DNA from: a virus
Direction: 5' to 3' (one strand)
Length of the DNA stretch: 24,995 nt
IMG/VR virus record: IMGVR_UViG_3300012920_000246
Coordinates: 1 to 24,995 of that record
Positions 2,358 through 15,286 of the stretch are shown here, piece after piece. The notes beneath the pieces are model-generated. The model ran no database searches. It was not told where the DNA came from and worked only from the letters and a program-made list of their open reading frames with translations. The stretch's first letter is position 1. Each line of letters starts with the position of its first letter. The translations under genes and the position numbers were made by a program.

Positions 2358-2549
2358 ATGTACCACACTAGACCAATTAAAACTTATGATCTTCTTACCG
2401 CATTGATTGATCGGGTCTCCGATGATCTTGTGGATGTGGATAAAGTTTATGATGAAGTGTTTAGTAATTCAAAGAGGGCTGACAAACGAAAATTGTTTGT
2501 GGCCCTTTCTGAGTTTAAAGATGCTTATCTGGAGAATCGCGATGGCTAA
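2358..2549 (+). CDS. small acidic protein of unknown function
   Basis: The chosen start is ATG 2358, just after the previous stop at 2355, giving 63 residues; an in-frame ATG at 2337 would add seven residues but lies inside the previous gene and has no better ribosome site. The product is helical, with alternating acidic and basic residues (VDVDKVYDEVF, SKRADKRKLF). No motif is recognisable. The last codons overlap the integrase start by 8 bases, implying translational coupling to the integrase. Confidence 0.6.
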   Translation: MYHTRPIKTYDLLTALIDRVSDDLVDVDKVYDEVFSNSKRADKRKLFVALSEFKDAYLENRDG

Positions 2550-3429
2550 ACGTATACATCAACCCTTTGAGGAGCTAGTGTCTTTGTACCTTGGCTCTAA
2601 CGAATTCAATAACTTAGCGCAAACAACTAGAAACCAGTACAAGTATTGGCTACGCCTTGCGTCAGAAAATTTACCTGCGGATATTGACTACCAAAAAATT
2701 ACTGGAGCTACTGCTAACTCTGCCTTTGACGCTATTGACAAAAGCATGGGGACCGTGTTGGCCAATCGTGTGCTTGCTGTGTGCCGCAGGCTGTACAGCT
2801 ATGCTATACGCATGGATCTTATTGACACGAACCCTTGGCGTAAGGTGAAGTCTAAGAGGGAGGAGGCACGTAGAATTGTTTGGACACCAGAGCAAGTGTC
2901 TAGTTTTTTGAGCACTGCTTACTCTGAGTGGGAGACACGTTCAATTGGACTCATTGCACAGATGTGCTACGAGTGGTGTCAACGTGTAGGTGACATGCGT
3001 CTGTTGACGTGGGATGCTATCAACTTTGAAGAGCAGTATGTAAAACTGGTTCAGTCAAAGCGCAGGGCACAAGTCAAGATTCCTATCAGCAACAATCTAT
3101 TTAACATGCTTCAACAGCAGAATGGTGCGTTCGACTTTCAGGATTACGTAGCACCCAGCATTACAGGTAGTATGAAACCGTATGACCTGTATCAGATATC
3201 ACGTTGGGTGAACAAGGTGAAGAGCCGTGCAGGATTACCCGACGAACTACGCCTCGCAGACTTACGTAGAACAGGCACAACGGAAATGGTTGAGGCGGGA
3301 GTACCTATGCCCCAGATCATGGCAGTCACCGGACACAGCACTCCTGCTTCGGTCATGCCGTATATGAAAAATAGTTTGACAAGCGCGAGTGAGGCCTGTA
3401 CGCTCCGCTCTGTCCACACCGGCAAATGA
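2542..3429 (+). CDS. int: tyrosine recombinase / phage integrase
   Basis: This 295-residue protein starts at ATG 2542 behind GGAG at 2531-2534. Residues about 8-105 form the SAM-like core-binding domain and about 110-290 the catalytic domain. Catalytic residues are Arg148 (CQRVGDMRLLTW), Lys173 (QSKRR), Arg242 (ADLRRTG), His265 (GHSTPAS) and the nucleophile Tyr274 (MPYMKN). The first His of the usual HxxR box is Ala239. The length is normal for a phage integrase without an extra arm-binding domain. It should integrate phage DNA by recombination between attP and attB, so the phage is probably temperate or recently descended from a temperate one. No att core was identified with confidence; the tRNA-Cys at 1370 is a candidate. 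Confidence 0.9.
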   Translation: MAKRIHQPFEELVSLYLGSNEFNNLAQTTRNQYKYWLRLASENLPADIDYQKITGATANSAFDAIDKSMGTVLANRVLAVCRRLYSYAIRMDLIDTNPWRKVKSKREEARRIVWTPEQVSSFLSTAYSEWETRSIGLIAQMCYEWCQRVGDMRLLTWDAINFEEQYVKLVQSKRRAQVKIPISNNLFNMLQQQNGAFDFQDYVAPSITGSMKPYDLYQISRWVNKVKSRAGLPDELRLADLRRTGTTEMVEAGVPMPQIMAVTGHSTPASVMPYMKNSLTSASEACTLRSVHTGK

Positions 3430-3449: not shown

Positions 3450-4235
3450 ATGTCAAGTCCTATTGTAGCCAAGCTTATTGATTCATTAAATCTTGATGAA
3501 GGACAAACGTACCGGGGCGACTGTCCTGTATGTTTAGGTAAAAATACTTTCACCGTGTCCCGCAATATGTACAGCATCTTATACAACTGCTACAAGAATA
3601 CCTGCCGTCTTTCTGGCGTGGAGAATACAAGCATGGAAGTATCGACAATAGAAGACATTCTAGCTGACGACATTGCACATCAATCCGAGCAAGAGTTATT
3701 TACTTTTGCGATACCTCCTCACCTTGTGCATTACCCGGATGTACAAAACCCCATATACCCTGCCTTCTTGAGGCGGTACGACATAGACCCACAAGATGTG
3801 TTCTATGACATACGCCAAGATCGTTTGGTATTTCTTGTGGTGCATAAGAATGGGGAGTTAGTTGATGCAGTTGGCAGATCGTTGAATGGTAGAAAACCCA
3901 AGTGGTTACGCTACGCTTCGTCCCCTGTTCCGTACGTGCATGGGCATAACCCTGACACCGTTGTGATTGTTGAAGATGCAATAAGTGCCTACGTTATAGG
4001 CACATTGTACCCACACAAATGTGTATGCCTAGCTTTGTTAGGTACAAACCTCACACCCTTCCACAAACAGTACATAAAAAAGCATTACGACAATGTGATT
4101 GTTGCACTTGACCCCGATGCTTTGATTAAGGCTATTGACATCGCCAATGAGCTAAATGGTAAAGTTTTAGGCTTAATGGATGATTTAAAATATAAGTTAT
4201 CAGAGGACTTACAAGCTCTAGAGGAGATGTTATAA
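3450..4235 (+). CDS. DNA primase with zinc finger and TOPRIM domain
   Basis: This 261-residue protein has AAAGGGAG ahead of its ATG. The N-terminal zinc-binding module has C25-x2-C28 and C47-x4-C52 (T7 gp4 has CxxC in both positions). A central region at 85-165 leads to a TOPRIM domain with the Glu motif VVIVEDAISA (Glu175) and the Asp pair VALDPDA (Asp221, Asp223) that binds Mg2+. It should synthesise RNA primers for lagging-strand replication. Unlike T7 gp4 it has no helicase domain; the helicase is a separate gene at 5592. The protein ends about 40 residues after the TOPRIM Asp motif. Confidence 0.85.
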   Translation: MSSPIVAKLIDSLNLDEGQTYRGDCPVCLGKNTFTVSRNMYSILYNCYKNTCRLSGVENTSMEVSTIEDILADDIAHQSEQELFTFAIPPHLVHYPDVQNPIYPAFLRRYDIDPQDVFYDIRQDRLVFLVVHKNGELVDAVGRSLNGRKPKWLRYASSPVPYVHGHNPDTVVIVEDAISAYVIGTLYPHKCVCLALLGTNLTPFHKQYIKKHYDNVIVALDPDALIKAIDIANELNGKVLGLMDDLKYKLSEDLQALEEML

Positions 4236-5344: not shown

Positions 5345-5595
5345 AAGAAGAAGCATGGGAAATTGTAATAACGACAGAAGCTCCTCGCATCGGCTCTGGG
5401 TATCGACTTGTCAGAGCAAAGCACGGCAGAAAGTGGACATATATAACCACCTTGTGGGGTGACGGGCGCACAAAACTTTCTAAGAGTGAGTGGAATAAAA
5501 TTAAAAAGCGGCAACAGCTTTGTATGAAAGAAGTGAATAAAGGTTTGCGCAAGGCAAATAAAAAGTTGTTTCCTCGATCATGGAGAAGTAAATGA
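5341..5595 (+). CDS. small basic protein of unknown function (84 aa)
   Basis: The protein is coupled to both neighbours by ATGA overlaps (5341-5344 and 5592-5595). Its 84 residues are strongly basic, especially from residue 40 on (SEWNKIKKRQ, KEVNKGLRKANKKLF, RSWRSK), with a beta-rich N-terminal part (EIVITTEAP, YRLVRAKHGRKW). The basic charge and tight link to the helicase suggest nucleic-acid binding, perhaps as a helicase or replisome accessory; this is inference from charge and context. No family recognised. Confidence 0.7.
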   Translation: MKEEAWEIVITTEAPRIGSGYRLVRAKHGRKWTYITTLWGDGRTKLSKSEWNKIKKRQQLCMKEVNKGLRKANKKLFPRSWRSK

Positions 5596-6812
5596 TAGAG
5601 GAATTGTCGCTAATAAAAAGTTTGTTAACCAAATCTTTTTACGATGATTACAAGGGCACAAAATGTCCGCCTAAATTATTTAGAACTAAAGAGCTTGGTC
5701 GTGTTAAAACAACTATCGATAAAGCAATGCAAGAGTACAAAAGAGATCTCTCTGCTGAAGAAGTTGCCGGGTTGTTTTTTGTTAATAATCCCACCATGAC
5801 CACAGCAGAGAGAGACTCCTATGAAAAACTTTTTACACAAATTAAATCTCAACCCACCATTGGCTCCGATGTAGCTAATGGAATCTTAGCTAAACTATTT
5901 CAAAAATATCTTGGGCGAGAGATTGCAAATGTCGGTGTGCGATATGTCAACGGAGGTGCAAACTCCCTTGAACCTTTGCGCAGAATCATCGAGAACTATC
6001 GTGATGATTTCCTACCAGACTTAAATATTGAGTGGGATGATCTTTCTCTTGAAGGCTTACTAGAAAAGAGCGATTTAGAAGCGCGATGGCGTTTTAATTT
6101 ATCCAGCCTTGCGGAGCGTGTTGAGGGCGTTAATGCGGGACATTTGATTATCGGAGGAGCCAGACCAAATACAGGCAAGACATCTTTCCATGCGTCTTTA
6201 TTGGCGGGACCGGATGGCTTTGCAGTGCAGGGAGCTAACTGTATTGTGTTGTGTAATGAGGAAGCACCCCATCGTGTAGGCTCCCGTTACTTGACTGCGG
6301 CATCCGGCATGACAATGCGGGAGATTAAAAATAATCCACGCGAAGCTTTGTCGAGATGGAACAAGCTTAGAAAAAACATTAAATTAAAAGATGCAACCGG
6401 GCAAAACATGCACTGGGTTGAGTTGATATGTAAAACATACAGCCCCGATATTCTTGTGTTAGATATGGGAGATAAATTTGCCCCCGATCAATCACACGAA
6501 GGCCTGAAGTTATGTGCAATTCATGCTAGGCAAATAGCTAAAGAGTACAACTGCGCTGTGTTCTATATGTCTCAGCTTTCAGCAGAGGCGGAGGGTAGGG
6601 CTAACCTCAATCAATCAATGATGGAGGGCAGTAAAACAGGCAAGGCTTCTGAAGCAGACCTGATGTTGTTGATTGCGAAAGACACTCCGGCGGAGGGGTT
6701 GGAAGCTAATGAGTTTTTGCGTCATGTAAACGTGGCTAAAAATAAATTATCAGGATGGCATGGGCGTATTGATTGTATCTTAGACTACACGATTAGCAGG
6801 TACGACGTTTGA
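5592..6812 (+). CDS. replicative DNA helicase, DnaB/T7 gp4-like RecA-fold ATPase
   Basis: This 406-residue protein has an N-terminal helical region of about 150 residues and a RecA-type motor from about 165. The Walker A motif is GARPNTGKTS (189-198) and Walker B is DILVLDMGD with Asp291. Later come a probable DNA-binding and sensor region (MSQLSAEAEG, GSKTGKASEADLML) and a C-terminal strand near VAKNKLSGWHGR that fits the arginine-finger and beta-hairpin end of DnaB motors. It should unwind DNA 5' to 3' as a hexamer, paired with the separate primase at 3450. It overlaps the gene before by 4 bases. Family A polymerase follows within 500 bases, as in T7-like replisomes. Confidence 0.85.
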   Translation: MIEELSLIKSLLTKSFYDDYKGTKCPPKLFRTKELGRVKTTIDKAMQEYKRDLSAEEVAGLFFVNNPTMTTAERDSYEKLFTQIKSQPTIGSDVANGILAKLFQKYLGREIANVGVRYVNGGANSLEPLRRIIENYRDDFLPDLNIEWDDLSLEGLLEKSDLEARWRFNLSSLAERVEGVNAGHLIIGGARPNTGKTSFHASLLAGPDGFAVQGANCIVLCNEEAPHRVGSRYLTAASGMTMREIKNNPREALSRWNKLRKNIKLKDATGQNMHWVELICKTYSPDILVLDMGDKFAPDQSHEGLKLCAIHARQIAKEYNCAVFYMSQLSAEAEGRANLNQSMMEGSKTGKASEADLMLLIAKDTPAEGLEANEFLRHVNVAKNKLSGWHGRIDCILDYTISRYDV

Positions 6813-6818
6813 ACTAAA

Positions 6819-7313
6819 ATGATTGAGCTTCTCATAACAGATAAACAACTATTAGAAGCAAGGGACTCAGCCGTTCAGATGGGCAGGTTGAATAACAGTA
6901 TTACTAGGGGCCAAGGAAACATAGCAGGATTTATTGGTGAAATTATTTCGGCACAGTTATTAAATGCCCTGCGTAAGAATACGTTTGATTACGATTTAGT
7001 TTTAGCTAATGGGCAAACCGTTGATGTAAAAACTAAAAGAACATCAGTGACACCGTTACCCCATTACGATTGTAGTGTAGCAGAGCTAAGCCTGCATCAG
7101 TGCTGTGATCATTATGCTTTTGTGCGTGTTAAAAACGATTATAGTGTTGCGTGGTTTCTTGGTTTGATTGCGCATAAAAAGTTTTTTGATTTAGCAAGGC
7201 ACATGAAGAAGGGAGAAATTGATCCCGACAACGGATACGTTGTTAAATCAACTTGCTACAATTTGTCTATCGAAGATTTATGGGAGGTGTCTACGCATGA
7301 AAGTTGTTCTTGA
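6819..7313 (+). CDS. PD-(D/E)XK nuclease-like protein
   Basis: This 164-residue protein follows the helicase by 6 bases. Its pattern fits the restriction-endonuclease fold: an N-terminal helix with Glu41 (GFIGEIISAQLL), then YDLVLANGQTVDVKTKR, where Asp59, Asp69 and Lys71 form a D...D-x-K site, followed by strands and helices that complete a minimal fold. The substrate could be branched or host DNA; the sequence does not say. It overlaps the DNA polymerase gene by 17 bases, placing it in the replication operon. Confidence is good for the fold and low for the substrate. Confidence 0.7.
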   Translation: MIELLITDKQLLEARDSAVQMGRLNNSITRGQGNIAGFIGEIISAQLLNALRKNTFDYDLVLANGQTVDVKTKRTSVTPLPHYDCSVAELSLHQCCDHYAFVRVKNDYSVAWFLGLIAHKKFFDLARHMKKGEIDPDNGYVVKSTCYNLSIEDLWEVSTHESCS

Positions 7314-9351
7314 CGTTGAGAATACTGTGACCCGGCGCGATGGTAAATTGCATCTCGATCCTTTTGAGTCAACAAATACTTTAGTTATGGTTGGTGTGCA
7401 AATCGAAGGGGAAAAGCCTAAGCATTTTACTTTTGATCATGCGGAGTATGACTGCAAGTATGAGTACAGAAAACAAGATTGCGATACCCTGCAAAAAATA
7501 TTAGATGAAACTACTGTTCTAATTGGGCAAAACATTAATCACGATTTACTATGGTTATGGGAGACGGGCTTTAAATATGATGGCATCGTCTGGGATACCA
7601 TGCTAGCAGAGTATATATTTCAACGCGGGATTAAAGAACCCCTCTCTCTAGAAGCGATAGCTGAAAGAAGAGATCTGTCTGCAAAAAAACAGGACACCAT
7701 GAAACAGTATTTGAAACAGGGTGTGCCGGTATCTGAAATTCCGTATGAAGAACTGAAGGAATATCTTTACGCTGACTTAGCCACTACATGGGCTTTATAC
7801 GATGAGCAGTCTGCGGACATGCATGACAAAGCTAACCGCGAGTTGAGCACCGTGTTAGATCTGACAATGCATACCTGTATGCTACTGTCTAGAATTTATC
7901 GCACTGGTTTTAAAGTAGACACTAAAGCACTGGAACAAGTACGGATAGAATTTGAAAGTGAGAAAGCCGCGCTTCAAAAGGAATTACAACGGGAGGTAAG
8001 AGAGCTTATGGGTGATACCCCCATCAACCTTAATTCTCCTGAACAACTTTCTTGGGTGATTTATTCTAGAAAACCTATAAACAAAACGGATTGGGCTAAT
8101 GAAGCTAATCCCTACATGAACACTGTGGACTTTAAAAGTTTTGTAAACAAACTATCAATTCCAGTTCGGCGCACCAAAGCTAAAAAGTGTAGCGAATGTA
8201 ATGGCAATGGCTCCTATTTTAAAACTAAAAAGGATGGGTCAGATTATAAAAAACCCACGAAATGTTCTACTTGCATGGGTCGTGGGTACGTGCTAATTAA
8301 TTTACCTAAACTAGCAGGACTAAAGTTTTCCGCTCCCAGTGCAAAGTGGCACAGTGCAAATGGATTCAGTACAAGCAAAACTAATTTGGAGTATTTAGAA
8401 CATGTTGCAAAGACTCGATCAATGGAGAGCGCGGCGAACTTCTTATCTAAGCTTAGAAGACTTTCTGCGCTCGATACGTATCTATCTAGTTTCATTGACG
8501 GTATCAGGATTCACACTAAGCATGACGATAGGCTTCATGTTAGATTAACTCAGCACATGACAGCAACGGGGAGATTCTCCGGGCGAGACCCTAACATGCA
8601 GAACATGCCTCGCGGTGGAACATTCCCCGTAAAACGTGTGTTCATATCACGTTGGGAAGGCGGCAAGATTATGGAAGCAGATTTTGCACAGCTTGAGTTT
8701 CGCGTTGCGGCTTTTTTATCGCAAGATCCGGTAGCCATGCAAGAAATAAATGAGGGGTTTGATGTCCATGCATACACCGCAAAAGTTATTTCGGAAGCGG
8801 GCCAAAAAATTAGCAGGCAGGAGGCGAAAGCACACACTTTTGCGCCGTTATATGGAGCAACAGGATATGGAAGAACATCAGCAGAGGCCGCATACTACGA
8901 ACAGTTTATCGATAAGTATAAAGGAATCGGACGATGGCACAGAGAGTTAGCCAAAGAAGTTCTTACCTATAAAAAAATAACCACTCCCAGTGGCAGACAG
9001 TTTTCTTTTCCTCATGTGAAGAGGCGTAGAGATGGAACGATTACAGACTTTACCGCAGTAAAAAACTATCCTGTTCAATCGCTTGCGACAGCGGACATAG
9101 TTCCTGCTGTGCTTCTTTGCATAGAACAGGAGTTGACAAAACTTAATTCGGTAATTGTAAATTCAGTACATGATTCCATTGTCATCGATGTGCATCCAGA
9201 TGAGGAGCGATCTGTTGTTCGGGTAATTAATAAAGTTAACAATGCGCTATACGATATTATTAAAGATCGTTTCGGAATAGAGTTCAACGTTCCTCTTGTA
9301 CTCGAAGCAAAATTAGGGCACAATTGGCTAGAACAAATGGAGGTCGCATAA
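7297..9351 (+). CDS. polA: DNA polymerase I family A with inserted DnaJ-like zinc domain
   Basis: This 684-residue protein starts at ATG 7297 behind GGAGG at 7282-7286; an in-frame ATG at 7219 lies inside the preceding gene. Residues 1-175 are the 3'-5' exonuclease: LDVEN (Asp6, Glu8), NINHD (Asp83) and YLYAD (Tyr156, Asp160). Residues about 295-333 hold two CxxCxGxG knuckles, CSECNGNG (298-305) and CSTCMGRG (323-330), as in the DnaJ central zinc domain. The polymerase domain follows: motif A ADFAQLEFR (Asp462), motif B KAHTFAPLYG (Lys511, Phe515, Tyr519) and motif C SVHDSIVIDV (His625, Asp626). Ser627 replaces the usual Glu of HDE. Such a partial DnaJ insert was described for SAR116 phage HMO-2011. 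There is no 5'-3' exonuclease domain. Confidence 0.95.
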   Translation: MKVVLDVENTVTRRDGKLHLDPFESTNTLVMVGVQIEGEKPKHFTFDHAEYDCKYEYRKQDCDTLQKILDETTVLIGQNINHDLLWLWETGFKYDGIVWDTMLAEYIFQRGIKEPLSLEAIAERRDLSAKKQDTMKQYLKQGVPVSEIPYEELKEYLYADLATTWALYDEQSADMHDKANRELSTVLDLTMHTCMLLSRIYRTGFKVDTKALEQVRIEFESEKAALQKELQREVRELMGDTPINLNSPEQLSWVIYSRKPINKTDWANEANPYMNTVDFKSFVNKLSIPVRRTKAKKCSECNGNGSYFKTKKDGSDYKKPTKCSTCMGRGYVLINLPKLAGLKFSAPSAKWHSANGFSTSKTNLEYLEHVAKTRSMESAANFLSKLRRLSALDTYLSSFIDGIRIHTKHDDRLHVRLTQHMTATGRFSGRDPNMQNMPRGGTFPVKRVFISRWEGGKIMEADFAQLEFRVAAFLSQDPVAMQEINEGFDVHAYTAKVISEAGQKISRQEAKAHTFAPLYGATGYGRTSAEAAYYEQFIDKYKGIGRWHRELAKEVLTYKKITTPSGRQFSFPHVKRRRDGTITDFTAVKNYPVQSLATADIVPAVLLCIEQELTKLNSVIVNSVHDSIVIDVHPDEERSVVRVINKVNNALYDIIKDRFGIEFNVPLVLEAKLGHNWLEQMEVA

Positions 9352-10241
9352 TGACTACTGAAGTATCAACAATCAATACAAGCAACTTTTCAGCTATGGC
9401 CCAAGCTATGGGCATGGGGGCCGACATGGCAAAGGCTCCTTCTAAATCTTCTACACTTCCCCGTCTTCGCATTTGGAATAAACCTGTCATGGGACAGGTT
9501 GAAGTCAAAGGCAAAATGAAAAACATGGAAGTTGTTTCTTCTGGTTCGTATCGACTGCAACTGCCTGATGATAAGTATGTCTATGCAGAGAGTATAGAGA
9601 TACGTGTTTTCCTACAGCGTTTTATGTATAAGCGTTATGATTCATCTGATAACACTTATGTGAAAACAATTATGGGTGAGGATCTCAATGGAGACATGAA
9701 GGATAACATTGGAACATTTAACTGTGGTAAGCCTCCGGGTTATATTCAAGACTTTGCATCTCTTCCAGAAGAAAAGAAAAAGTTTTTCAAAACAATTAAA
9801 CGTGTCCGTGTGTTACTCGGAGAAGTGCGACTAGTTAATGCAGTTGATGAATCGGGGGAAGCAATAACTTCTGACACGGTGCATTCGTTCATCTGGGAAA
9901 TAGACAATGCTGAAGCATTCCGCACAATGGGCGAACCCTTTACAAAATTAGGGAAGAACAAACGTCTTCCGATTCAGCATTGGATACAGTGCAGTTCTAC
10001 ACGGGGAGGCGAAGGCAATACTGCCATTGAATATTATGTCCCTAGTTACAAACTTGATATCTCTTCTACCGTAGAAATAACAGATGCGGATCAAGAGAAG
10101 TTTCAAAACTTCATAGAGTGGATTGGTAATTACAACGAATACATTGTGGAGTCGCACAACGAAAAGTTAAGTAAACAAATTTCTGAGGAGGATGCCGCTC
10201 TAGTCGATGAGTTTATCGACATAGAAGAGGATCAAGGATGA
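9351..10241 (+). CDS. putative single-stranded DNA-binding protein
   Basis: This 297-residue protein starts in the polymerase stop codon (TAATG). The first 35 residues are Ala/Met/Ser-rich and look disordered; residues 45-245 are beta-rich with many aromatics and a GTFNCGKPPG segment. The last 20 residues are strongly acidic (ALVDEFIDIEEDQG), the kind of tail that phage and bacterial SSBs use to recruit partners. Position between polymerase and exonuclease, the beta-rich middle and the acidic tail all suggest an SSB analogous to T7 gp2.5, but I recognise no family motif. The alternative is a polymerase accessory protein. It overlaps the exonuclease gene by 4 bases. Confidence 0.6.
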   Translation: MTTEVSTINTSNFSAMAQAMGMGADMAKAPSKSSTLPRLRIWNKPVMGQVEVKGKMKNMEVVSSGSYRLQLPDDKYVYAESIEIRVFLQRFMYKRYDSSDNTYVKTIMGEDLNGDMKDNIGTFNCGKPPGYIQDFASLPEEKKKFFKTIKRVRVLLGEVRLVNAVDESGEAITSDTVHSFIWEIDNAEAFRTMGEPFTKLGKNKRLPIQHWIQCSSTRGGEGNTAIEYYVPSYKLDISSTVEITDADQEKFQNFIEWIGNYNEYIVESHNEKLSKQISEEDAALVDEFIDIEEDQG

Positions 10242-11908: not shown

Positions 11909-12222
11909 TGGGCATGAAAGATATTCGGGAGTCACTAACTCCTGACGTGAACGCCGTCCTTGAAGACATGGTAGATGCGGACATGTGGGACGAGATTGAA
12001 AAACCAGAGCATTACAACAGTGGATCTATCGAAACGATTGACTATATTATTGATGTCCTTGGTCCTTATGACGCTATTCATTATTGTCATGGGAATGCTT
12101 TAAAGTATCTTGGCACTCGTCTTTGGCGCAAAGGAGATCCAATTAGTAACGTAGGTAAAGCCATTTGGTATCTGAAGAAAGCGAAAGAGCTAATGAAGCA
12201 GACTGAAGGAACAAACTGGTAA
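11908..12222 (+). CDS. DUF3310 protein, T7 gp1.7-like nucleotide kinase family
   Basis: The start is taken as ATG 11908, overlapping the previous stop (TGATG), with GGGAG at 11897-11901; a GTG at 11905 and an ATG at 11914 are alternatives. The 104-residue protein has the DUF3310 signature: PEHYNSGSIETIDYI, then YCHGNALKYLGTRLWRKGD, then KAIWYLKKA. T7 gp1.7 of this family phosphorylates dGMP and dTMP, so a role in nucleotide supply fits the ribonucleotide reductase gene that follows with a TAATG overlap. The family call is strong; activity in this member is inferred. Confidence 0.85.
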   Translation: MGMKDIRESLTPDVNAVLEDMVDADMWDEIEKPEHYNSGSIETIDYIIDVLGPYDAIHYCHGNALKYLGTRLWRKGDPISNVGKAIWYLKKAKELMKQTEGTNW

Positions 12223-13982
12223 TGAAATATTCAACTATTAATATTGATTTATCTAGAGATAATAACCTAAGTAAGCAAGGGATTGCTTTACTCAAAGATT
12301 ATTACATGTTAGATAATGAAACATCTCCACAGCAAGCATTTGCACGAGCGGCTGTGGCTTATTGTGAGGGTGATTATGATTTTGCTCAACGCATTTATGA
12401 TTACGCTAGCAACTGTTGGTTTATGTTTGCTAGCCCAGTTTTGTCTAATGCACCAGATTCCAACAATAGTCCGAAAGGGCTTCCTATTAGTTGCTTTCTT
12501 ACATATGTTGACGATACTTTGGATTCTCTTATTGAGCACAACTCTGAAGTAGCGTGGCTGTCTGTAAAAGGTGGCGGTGTGGGAGGTCACTGGTCCTCTG
12601 TTCGCCCCGTAAGTGATAAGGCACCCGGTGTAATACCGTTCATGAAAGTTGTTGACTCGCAGATGACAGCTTATAAACAAGGCAAGACTCGCAAGGGATC
12701 TTACGCGGCATATCTCGATGTATCTCACCCGGAGATTATTGAGTTTATAAACTTTAAAGTTCCCACAGGTGGGGACGTTAATAGAAAGTGTTTGAATTTA
12801 TTCAACGCAGTTAATATCACCGATGCTTTTATGGAGGCAGTACAAAATGGAGAACAATGGGAACTACGATGCCCTGATTCAGGAGCTATCAGATCTACAA
12901 TCCAAGCTAGAGAGTTGTGGCAAAGAATACTTGAGGCTCGTTTCAGAACAGGCTCCCCTTACCTCAACTTTATCGACACAGCAAACAGAGGGCTACCAGA
13001 TTCTCAAAAATCATTTGGACTTACAATTAAAGGCAGTAATCTCTGCAATGAAATTCATCTCGCAACATCTAAAAAACGCACAGCAGTTTGCTGTCTCTCC
13101 AGCGTCAACCTCGAAAAGTGGGACGAGTGGAGAACCAGTAGAATGGTTCAAGACTTGGTACGACTCTTGGACAACGTCCTTAAATTCTTTATCCGACATG
13201 CTTCGGAAGAATTAGAGAAGGCTAAGTATAGCGCGTATATGGAACGGTCCATTGGCTTAGGCGCAATGGGCTTTCACGGGTACCTACAAAACAAAGGTAT
13301 CGCATGGGATTCTTGGCAAGCGGCTAGTGAAAACTATCAGATGTTTAAGAAGATCAAAGAAGACGCTGTGGAGTCTACGCATGAATTGGCTAAAGAGAGA
13401 GGTGAATCACCTGATATGGCGGGCACAGGGAGGCGTAATGCGCATTTACTTGCGATTGCTCCTAATGCTAACTCGTCAATTATCTGCGGGTGCTCAGCGT
13501 CTATCGAACCTATCAAGTCGAATGCATACACTCACAGAACACGTGCAGGTGCGCATTTGGTTAAGAACAAAGCGTTAGAAAAAGTGCTGGAGGAACACGG
13601 TGAAAATACGGAGAGAACGTGGAAGGGTATCATTGCTTCAGAAGGCTCTGTCCAGCATCTGGACTTCCTCTCAGACCACGAAAAGAGAGTTTTCAAAACG
13701 GCCTTTGAACTCGATCAGACGTGGGTTATTGAACATGCGGCGAAGAGACAGGAGTTTATTTGCCAAGGACAGTCCGTGAATGTATTTTTCCCGGCTGGTT
13801 CACCTAAGTCGTACGTAAACTCTGTTCATATAAAAGCTTGGAAAGATGGCTTGAAAGGGTTATACTACTTACGTACAAACGCAGGAGTGTCTGCTGACAA
13901 AGTAGGTGCATCTGTGGAGCGCAATGCGCTAAAGGATTTCTCTGGCGACGATGCAGAAGAATGCATCAGTTGTCAGGGATAA
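12222..13982 (+). CDS. nrdA: ribonucleoside-diphosphate reductase alpha subunit (class I)
   Basis: This 586-residue catalytic subunit reduces ribonucleotides for DNA synthesis. Key residues are the redox Cys91 (LPISCFLTY), the active-site set N273-L-C275-N-E277, and partner Cys290 or the adjacent Cys291. The tyrosine pair of the radical path appears in GLYYLRT, and the C-terminal shuttle pair is C581-x2-C584 (ECISCQG). It is shorter than bacterial NrdA and lacks the N-terminal ATP-cone, as in many phage enzymes, so dATP inhibition through that site should be absent. The start is coupled to DUF3310 by TAATG. The small subunit follows after a zinc-finger gene. Confidence 0.95.
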   Translation: MKYSTINIDLSRDNNLSKQGIALLKDYYMLDNETSPQQAFARAAVAYCEGDYDFAQRIYDYASNCWFMFASPVLSNAPDSNNSPKGLPISCFLTYVDDTLDSLIEHNSEVAWLSVKGGGVGGHWSSVRPVSDKAPGVIPFMKVVDSQMTAYKQGKTRKGSYAAYLDVSHPEIIEFINFKVPTGGDVNRKCLNLFNAVNITDAFMEAVQNGEQWELRCPDSGAIRSTIQARELWQRILEARFRTGSPYLNFIDTANRGLPDSQKSFGLTIKGSNLCNEIHLATSKKRTAVCCLSSVNLEKWDEWRTSRMVQDLVRLLDNVLKFFIRHASEELEKAKYSAYMERSIGLGAMGFHGYLQNKGIAWDSWQAASENYQMFKKIKEDAVESTHELAKERGESPDMAGTGRRNAHLLAIAPNANSSIICGCSASIEPIKSNAYTHRTRAGAHLVKNKALEKVLEEHGENTERTWKGIIASEGSVQHLDFLSDHEKRVFKTAFELDQTWVIEHAAKRQEFICQGQSVNVFFPAGSPKSYVNSVHIKAWKDGLKGLYYLRTNAGVSADKVGASVERNALKDFSGDDAEECISCQG

Positions 13983-14245
13983 TGAGTATGATAGATAGAA
14001 GTCATCATGAGTTAGTTTGTTCCATCTGTCATGGTGAATTTGATATAGATCTTGAAGGTGGCTTAAGTGGAGAGCTAGGTATTTTACCAGTGTCTCTGTG
14101 TGCAATGTGTTACTCTGGGTTGAGTACTTTGTTTGATGACCCAGAGCTATATGAACAGATGGAAAAGGCAGAAAAAGAAATTGTTTATCTGCGTCAAAGA
14201 GTTAATGAATTAACTAAAGAGTTGAATAAAAAAGATGTTGACTAA
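13982..14245 (+). CDS. zinc-finger protein with C-terminal coiled coil
   Basis: The start is ATG 13982 inside the nrdA stop (TAATG); the frame is open back to 13961, but only through nrdA codons. The 87-residue protein has C13-x2-C16 and C40-x2-C43, a four-cysteine zinc site, then a helix and a C-terminal coiled coil (KAEKEIVYLRQRVNELTKEL). Its position between nrdA and nrdB might suggest a redox or assembly partner (a glutaredoxin often sits there), but it has no CPxC redox motif or thioredoxin fold signs. The -35 box of the nrdB-side promoter overlaps its final codons. Confidence 0.75.
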   Translation: MSMIDRSHHELVCSICHGEFDIDLEGGLSGELGILPVSLCAMCYSGLSTLFDDPELYEQMEKAEKEIVYLRQRVNELTKELNKKDVD

Positions 14246-14265
14246 TCTTTTTTGTTGAGTATAAC
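14238..14265 (+). promoter_or_regulatory. sigma70-type promoter upstream of nrdB
   Basis: TTGACT (14238-14243) and TATAAC (14260-14265) are separated by 16 bases. Transcription would start near 14272, only a few bases before the terminator hairpin at 14276-14299, so the new RNA would carry that hairpin at its very 5' end. It would drive nrdB on its own, uncoupled from nrdA. Confidence 0.6.
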
Positions 14266-14275
14266 TACCCTTGTT

Positions 14276-14299
14276 GCCGGTCTAGTACCGGCTTTTTTT
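14276..14299 (+). terminator. rho-independent terminator between nrdA block and nrdB
   Basis: GCCGGT pairs with ACCGGC around a 5-base CTAGT loop and is followed by seven T at 14293-14299. It lies 30 bases after the zinc-finger gene stop and 25 bases before the nrdB start, so it would end the long replication transcript ahead of nrdB. Confidence 0.85.
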
Positions 14300-14323
14300 A
14301 CACGTAATAAACGGAGTGGTGTC

Positions 14324-15286
14324 ATGCCCCTACTAGAAGAATCAAAGACATACAAGCCCTTTCAATATCCGTGGGCCGTGGAAAAAGCGGTTGCACATGA
14401 GAAGGTACACTGGGGTGAATGGGAATGCAGGTTACAAGATGATGTTTCTCAATGGAATAATGGAAAATTAACAGATGTCGAGAAGAACCATATCACGCAA
14501 ATACTTCGATTGTTTACGCAGTCAGATGTCCAAGTTGGAACTAACTATCTGGAATCTTACATCCCAAAATTTAAGAATAATGAAATACGTGCGATGCTTA
14601 CTAGCTTTGCTAACCGTGAGTTTGTTCATCAACGCTCTTACGCTTTACTTAATGATACACTAGGGTTGCCAGAAGAGGAGTTCTCCGCGTTCTTGGAGTA
14701 TCAAGAAATGTCAGACAAGATAGAATTCATGGCAGATCTTGATACTAACAGTAGGGGGGGACTTGCAAAGGCAGTAGCTAGATCTGTGATCAATGAAGGC
14801 ATGAGTTTGTTTAGTGCTTTTGTTATGTTACTTAACTATCAACGCTTCGGAAAAATGCGGGGCATGTGTGAAATAGTAGAATGGAGTGTACGCGATGAAA
14901 CAATGCATTGTGACGGCATGGTCAAATTATTTAGAACCTTTTGTCAGGAACATCCGCGAATCGTTAATGACTATCTTAAATCAGATATCTATCAAATGGT
15001 TAGAGATGCAGTCGCACTTGAAGATAAAGTTATTGAACTTGCATATGAAATGGGAGATCTGGAAGGACTCAGTCAAGAAGAAGTAAAGCAATACATCAGG
15101 TATATTGCTGATCGAAGACTGATTCAGCTTGGATTGAAAGGTAACTATAAAGTAAAAGAAAATCCCTTACCATGGGTAGATTGGGTAATCGCGGGTGATT
15201 CACACAAGAATTTCTTTGAAGGTGTTGTTACCGACTACAATGCCGCAGGCATGGAAGGCGATGATTGGGGATGGCAAGCGGCGTAA
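14324..15286 (+). CDS. nrdB: ribonucleoside-diphosphate reductase beta subunit (class I)
   Basis: This 320-residue protein starts at ATG 14324 behind CGGAG at 14311-14315; the frame is open back to 14252 but that would translate the terminator. It holds the diiron-tyrosyl cofactor that starts the NrdA radical reaction. Ligands read as Asp68 (QSDVQVG), Glu99 and His102 (REFVHQRSY), Glu158 (VINEGMSLF), Glu192 and His195 (RDETMHCDG). Tyr106 in the QRSY segment matches the radical tyrosine, so the enzyme is class Ia-like. The C-terminal DDWGWQAA resembles the NrdA-docking tails of this subunit. It may be transcribed from the promoter at 14238 or by read-through from nrdA. Confidence 0.95.
   Translation: MPLLEESKTYKPFQYPWAVEKAVAHEKVHWGEWECRLQDDVSQWNNGKLTDVEKNHITQILRLFTQSDVQVGTNYLESYIPKFKNNEIRAMLTSFANREFVHQRSYALLNDTLGLPEEEFSAFLEYQEMSDKIEFMADLDTNSRGGLAKAVARSVINEGMSLFSAFVMLLNYQRFGKMRGMCEIVEWSVRDETMHCDGMVKLFRTFCQEHPRIVNDYLKSDIYQMVRDAVALEDKVIELAYEMGDLEGLSQEEVKQYIRYIADRRLIQLGLKGNYKVKENPLPWVDWVIAGDSHKNFFEGVVTDYNAAGMEGDDWGWQAA

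Follow-up and report, generated by a model that had tools for sequence, protein, structure and literature searches.

HMO-2011-type phages are reported to be dominant in the ocean (PMC9038755), and a partial DnaJ domain with two CxxCxGxG motifs has been described for the type (PMC9038755, PMC6918029). In HMO-2011, the pelagiphage HTVC033P and roseophages that include CRP-1, CRP-2 and CRP-3, the polymerase combines an exonuclease, this two-motif domain and a family A polymerase. The papers describing the domain give no tested function for it, while one suggestion, drawn from the use of DnaJ/DnaK by lambda, links it to DnaJ chaperones (PMC9038755). Inserts in the thumb with a grip on DNA or a binding site for a processivity factor are established for T7 and the human mitochondrial polymerase (PMC5984650, PMC7699545). 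In T7, basic residues of the thumb insert hold the DNA backbone (PMC5984650), and in plant organellar polymerases the lysines of thumb insertion 1 are functionally essential (PMC5984650, PMC7699545). According to PMC10061031, which cites Minnick 1996, a Klenow mutant with a truncated thumb has a lower affinity for DNA and is less processive, and its frameshift fidelity is reduced.

An HMO-2011-type polymerase in the window

The window, that is the whole stretch of DNA analysed here (Table 1), encodes a polymerase that is a further member of the published HMO-2011 kind. The protein displays 61% identity to the HMO-2011 polymerase over 683 aa, it has the same exonuclease, partial DnaJ and family A polymerase arrangement, and it differs from its HMO-2011 counterpart by sequence divergence only. 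By tblastn, identity was 54-58% to roseophages CRP-345, CRP-1, CRP-603, CRP-2 and CRP-207, 40% to pelagiphage HTVC033P and 37-39% to CRP-3, CRP-235, CRP-212 and CRP-738; beyond these it was ~25% at full coverage, or 35% at partial coverage (StenR_269). No near DNA match of the window was found among phage records. The first-pass annotation had named the partial DnaJ insert as the reported hallmark of HMO-2011, in agreement with the literature (PMC9038755, PMC6918029). Since the module has already been published as a feature of the type, the window polymerase adds one more member to it.

Phylogeny and gene order concur with the sequence identity. A palm-region tree joined the polymerase of the window to the HMO-2011 branch with support of 100/99, and the kinship proposed in the first-pass annotation thus withstood the test. 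The HMO-2011-type polymerases formed one clade (support 83/62) in a tree built without the two longest branches, T7 and Eleri; in one tree in which T7 and Eleri were included, StenR_269 and L252, both devoid of the insert, were nested within the HMO-2011-type group. The order primase, helicase, polymerase, gp13, exonuclease and endonuclease I is common to the window and HMO-2011, and the helicase, primase and DNAP core genes of HMO-2011-type phages are all present.

Other features of the locus were recorded alongside. A 164-aa ORF (6819-7313, +) lies between helicase and polymerase; HMO-2011 has no such ORF, the end of its helicase gene overlapping the start of the polymerase gene. Homologues of this ORF were present in 8 of the 80 nearest viral loci, and its product looks nuclease-like by eye ('DYDLVLANGQTVDVKTKR'), with a weak DUF6998 match as the only Pfam result. 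The window also carries genes for the large and small subunits of a class I ribonucleotide reductase (12222-15286, +), whereas the HMO-2011 enzyme is of the adenosylcobalamin-dependent class II, which amounts to a swap of reductase class within the phage type. A tRNA-Cys (gca) gene (1370-1444, +) is located upstream of an integrase gene at ~2524-3429.

Table 1. Coordinates of the polymerase, its thumb module and neighbouring genes
Feature	Position	Strand	Basis or remark
Viral record window	1-24,995	one strand	IMGVR_UViG_3300012920_000246, fragment of 24,995 bases
Family A DNA polymerase, HMO-2011 type, 684 aa, ATG at 7297	7297..9351	+	3'-5' exonuclease and thumb/palm/fingers
INLNS motif (residues 243-247) and thumb helix H1, residues 243-256	8023..8064	+	Upstream border of the insert
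Beta strand, residues 291-297	8167..8187	+	AF2 model; one side of the ribbon predicted to bear the zinc knuckle
CxxCxGxG motif 1, CSECNGNG, residues 298-305	8188..8211	+	ORF translation
Basic inter-motif loop, residues 306-322, SYFKTKKDGSDYKKPTK	8212..8262	+	Conservation, charge counts
CxxCxGxG motif 2, CSTCMGRG, residues 323-330	8263..8286	+	ORF translation
Beta strand, residues 331-339	8287..8313	+	AF2 model; opposite side of the ribbon
Thumb helix H2, residues 361-373	8377..8415	+	AF2 model, alignment; downstream border of the insert
SSB-like protein gene, HMO-2011 gp13 homologue	9351..10241	+	Acidic C-terminal tail ...DEFIDIEEDQG; putative function
DnaB-type replicative helicase	5592..6812	+	Pfam/PHROG searches
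DNA primase, PHROG 47	3450..4235	+	Contributes to the HMO-2011-type gene order

The cysteine module and its retention

Translation of the ORF confirmed that the two CxxCxGxG motifs delimit exactly the span assigned to them beforehand (8188-8286), and their location between exonuclease and polymerase matches the definition of the HMO-2011 type. A chance origin of the motifs was rejected, as 200,000 shuffles of the polymerase residues produced one CxxCxGxG in 0.0185% of cases and two never. In Pfam searches the polymerase matched DNA_pol_A (PF00476, E=4.9e-52) and a 3'-5' exonuclease (PF01612, E=4.8e-5), while DnaJ_CXXCXGXG (PF00684) was matched at residues 293-332 with E=5.9e-5 and 23.7 bits, which is below the gathering score of 32.7. 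The match covers positions 13-53 of the 65 in the PF00684 profile, this family was detected in 44 of 54 members, and the best sequence match of the module in the PDB was to repeats 2-3 of Ydj1 (1nlt, E=0.0071). In Ydj1, these repeats form the zinc-binding domain II (ZBDII), in which Cys162 and Cys185 lie (PMC6584821), and it is the CxxCxGxG pairs of this hairpin in the DnaJ/Ydj1 cysteine-rich domain that the module resembles. It differs from DnaJ in having two repeats instead of four and one predicted zinc site instead of two, and in being embedded in a thumb. The J domain is absent, only PF00476, PF01612 and PF00684 matching the polymerase at Pfam E<=0.1. As the J domain is missing and just two of the four repeats are present, the polymerase is not a DnaJ, and the module could at most act like half of the zinc region of DnaJ.

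PMC9038755 took in metagenomic genomes on condition that they had the motif, so that the presence of the module in all of them is partly circular. Our count of retention is free of that selection: relatives were retrieved by peptide words located outside the module, no word contained the cysteines of the module, and the one exception to the location, one of six words used for one later set, fell in the lysine loop and was devoid of Cys. Two C-x-x-C-x-x-x-G pairs were found in 243 of the 244 polymerases of the first sets, the sole exception being a contig that starts after the module. Both pairs were also carried by a further 26 polymerases of the deep CRP-3 group and 18 of the L245 group, four of which repeat earlier contigs; the remaining loci of these two sets are truncated fragments or distant polymerases and stand outside the count. 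Altogether, not one of ~283 module-spanning HMO-2011-type polymerases lacks any of the four cysteines, and the loss of zinc ligands in near relatives, which the first-pass annotation had named as evidence against its reading, was not observed among them.

Conservation within the module is concentrated on particular residues. Across 54-56 non-redundant sequences A295, C298, C301, G303, G305, C323, C326 and G330 never vary, while the residues adjacent to them vary freely. Conservation of K309, K311 and G314 reaches 90% or more, and the loop between the motifs, with a net charge of +3 to +11, is never neutral or acidic in the 243 relatives for which the charge was computed. The first glycine of motif 2 (Gly 328) is lost in some clades (CPDCKKVG, CATCNARG), which keep the cysteines and the loop charge; such changeability is expected if the cysteines are ligands and the glycine is structural. 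In the CRP-738-like L170-L249 group, the CxxC pairs are spaced by 37-38 residues as compared with 25, through a longer and more basic loop. When the 74-residue module region was searched by tblastn against 50,697 phage records, significant matches were obtained for 12 HMO-2011-type records only; outside the type no match in these records was significant, all others having E >=6.

Placement of the module in the thumb

The AlphaFold2 model of the polymerase, built from 54 sequences and representing the protein without metal or DNA, has a mean pLDDT of 91.1 and a pTM of 0.82, with ~85-93 in the blocks of the module. Its fold matches Bst, Klenow and the apicoplast polymerase (apPol) in structure comparison. 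In the model, the strands at 291-297 and 331-339 form the stem of the knuckle, and the module is confidently predicted to cap this beta-ribbon. The stem lies between helices 248-256 and 361-373, which we take to be H1 and H2, naming them after Pol I structures. The site initially proposed, roughly the exonuclease-thumb junction of T7 polymerase, had to be corrected: the module sits ~50 residues into the thumb, past INLNS (243-247) and between the two helices. Alignment and model place it at the thumb tip, in the H1-H2 loop, which corresponds to Pol I/Klenow residues ~594-607. In the alignment, the equivalent loop of E. coli Pol I follows FNLSSTKQL (578-586; FNLSS at 578-582), precedes STSEE (608-612) and contains KKTPGG (600-605). 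The Klenow deletion of the Minnick study of 1996 reportedly comprises residues 590-613. As truncation in this part of Klenow impairs DNA binding and processivity, the placement in the thumb loop turns the role of the module into a direct biochemical question.

The position of the T7 thioredoxin-binding domain (TBD) was considered for the module and rejected, because in the alignment the TBD precedes FNPSS (starting at 334) while the module follows the equivalent INLNS. Like the module, the TBD of T7 gp5 is a lysine-rich thumb insert in a phage family A replicase; it differs in its position before the motif, where it separates thumb helices H and H1, and in having no CxxC pair. According to the alignment, the H1-H2 loop contains at most a small insert in StenR_269, Eleri and E. 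coli Pol I.

Possible roles of the module

An always-basic turn on a ribbon at the thumb loop, fixed by zinc as we suppose, would most simply be a DNA-holding extension of the thumb. We infer zinc binding, DNA contact and an effect on processivity from the sequence and the model, and we give an even chance to the module being a zinc-stabilised extension of the thumb tip, with a basic hairpin that keeps hold of duplex DNA and so promotes processivity. A single-zinc Cys4 knuckle, equivalent to DnaJ repeats 2-3, would cap a two-stranded beta-ribbon inserted in the H1-H2 thumb loop of a Pol I-type phage replicase, and the zinc would fix the tip of the ribbon. The lysine-rich turn between the CxxC pairs (K309, K311, K312, G314) could then run along the phosphate backbone of the new duplex, strengthening the grip of the thumb and making the enzyme processive with no need to recruit a factor such as thioredoxin. 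Tuning of processivity, as proposed in the first-pass annotation, would fit both the corrected thumb site and the basic loop. Thumb insertion 1 of the plant organellar polymerases is similar in being lysine-rich, part of a family A replicase and modelled near dsDNA (PMC7699545); set beside the module by description, it differs in that no zinc motif is reported for it and in its roles in lesion bypass, lyase activity and end joining. We also put forward, tentatively and with some doubt, that the module is a built-in zinc-knuckle thumb clamp giving thioredoxin-free processivity, distinct from both the T7 TBD-thioredoxin arrangement and sliding clamps. If true, a dominant marine phage group would have its own solution to replicase processivity.

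Against a grip on DNA it can be held that DnaJ zinc knuckles of this type bind proteins, not DNA, and that the acidic tail of a protein would be an equally suitable ligand for the basic patch. The main rival explanation, which we consider unlikely, is that the module docks a partner, for which the SSB-like protein encoded next to the polymerase, with its acidic tail, is a candidate; binding of a partner such as SSB had also been proposed in the first-pass annotation. The gene for this protein is directly downstream of the polymerase in both the window and HMO-2011, and 117 of 119 distinct tails have a net charge of -3 or lower; in T7, binding of the SSB to the polymerase involves the C-terminal tail of the SSB and the TBD (PMC7699545), and an interaction at the thumb tip has been predicted for the PolA-SSB pair of C. 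perfringens (PMC10061031). Yet no consistent covariation was seen between the charges of module and tail (rho -0.10 overall, and +0.59, in the wrong direction, in the closest clade), the alignment puts the insert away from the TBD site, and the neighbour, with no Pfam or PHROG match, is only a putative SSB. That the knuckle merely locks a long surface loop and stabilises the fold, with no specific ligand, appears improbable. The loop does tolerate variation, since other phage polymerases carry quite dissimilar inserts there and StenR_269 has at most a small one, but the retention of all ligands together with the basic loop, individual lysines and Gly314 is more than a structural plug needs.

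The likeness to Ydj1 motifs 2-3 and the frequency of PF00684 matches among members would suit a mimic of DnaJ zinc centre 2 that recruits host DnaK/Hsp70 or chaperones replisome assembly. We regard this as very unlikely, however, since the part that stimulates DnaK, the J domain, is lacking, since the match is to just half of the DnaJ repeats (two of four) and zinc sites (one of two) and scores below the Pfam gathering score, and since some clades have lost the first glycine of motif 2 while the cysteines and the loop charge stay. Slimmer still is the chance of a redox switch, in which the CxxC pairs would sense redox state or thioredoxin and tune the polymerase. CxxC motifs are present and T7 polymerase does use thioredoxin (PMC5984650), but CxxCxGxG pairs are classical zinc ligands, the redox activity of thioredoxin is dispensable in T7 (PMC5984650), and the sequence analysis found no evidence of redox chemistry.

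Polymerases of Autographiviridae and Zobellviridae (ICP2, RHph_I38, Lullwater, R8W and others) also have an insert in the H1-H2 loop; it lacks the cysteine motif but includes a basic turn that follows the pattern K-x-G-x-x-x-G-x-x-K. By eye, the module could pass for a zinc-stabilised version of the ICP2/RHph/Lullwater hairpin; we make no such claim, as hhalign gave a probability of 2.7% (P=0.017) and aligned only 22 columns, all in the downstream flank, so that these inserts offer no independent structural parallel to the proposed thumb extension. In the model of one cysteine-free relative (L268), the insert region at 264-389 is mostly below pLDDT 50 (about 27-43). Among other family A polymerases, those of QDWS535, ICP2, VP41s3 and ctOsX528 (L086, L087, L255 and L261) are split into at least two genes near the thumb-palm border, and a distant PolA (L325) carries an intein-like insertion (CIAKGM...VHNC) before the QPNFQNMP motif.
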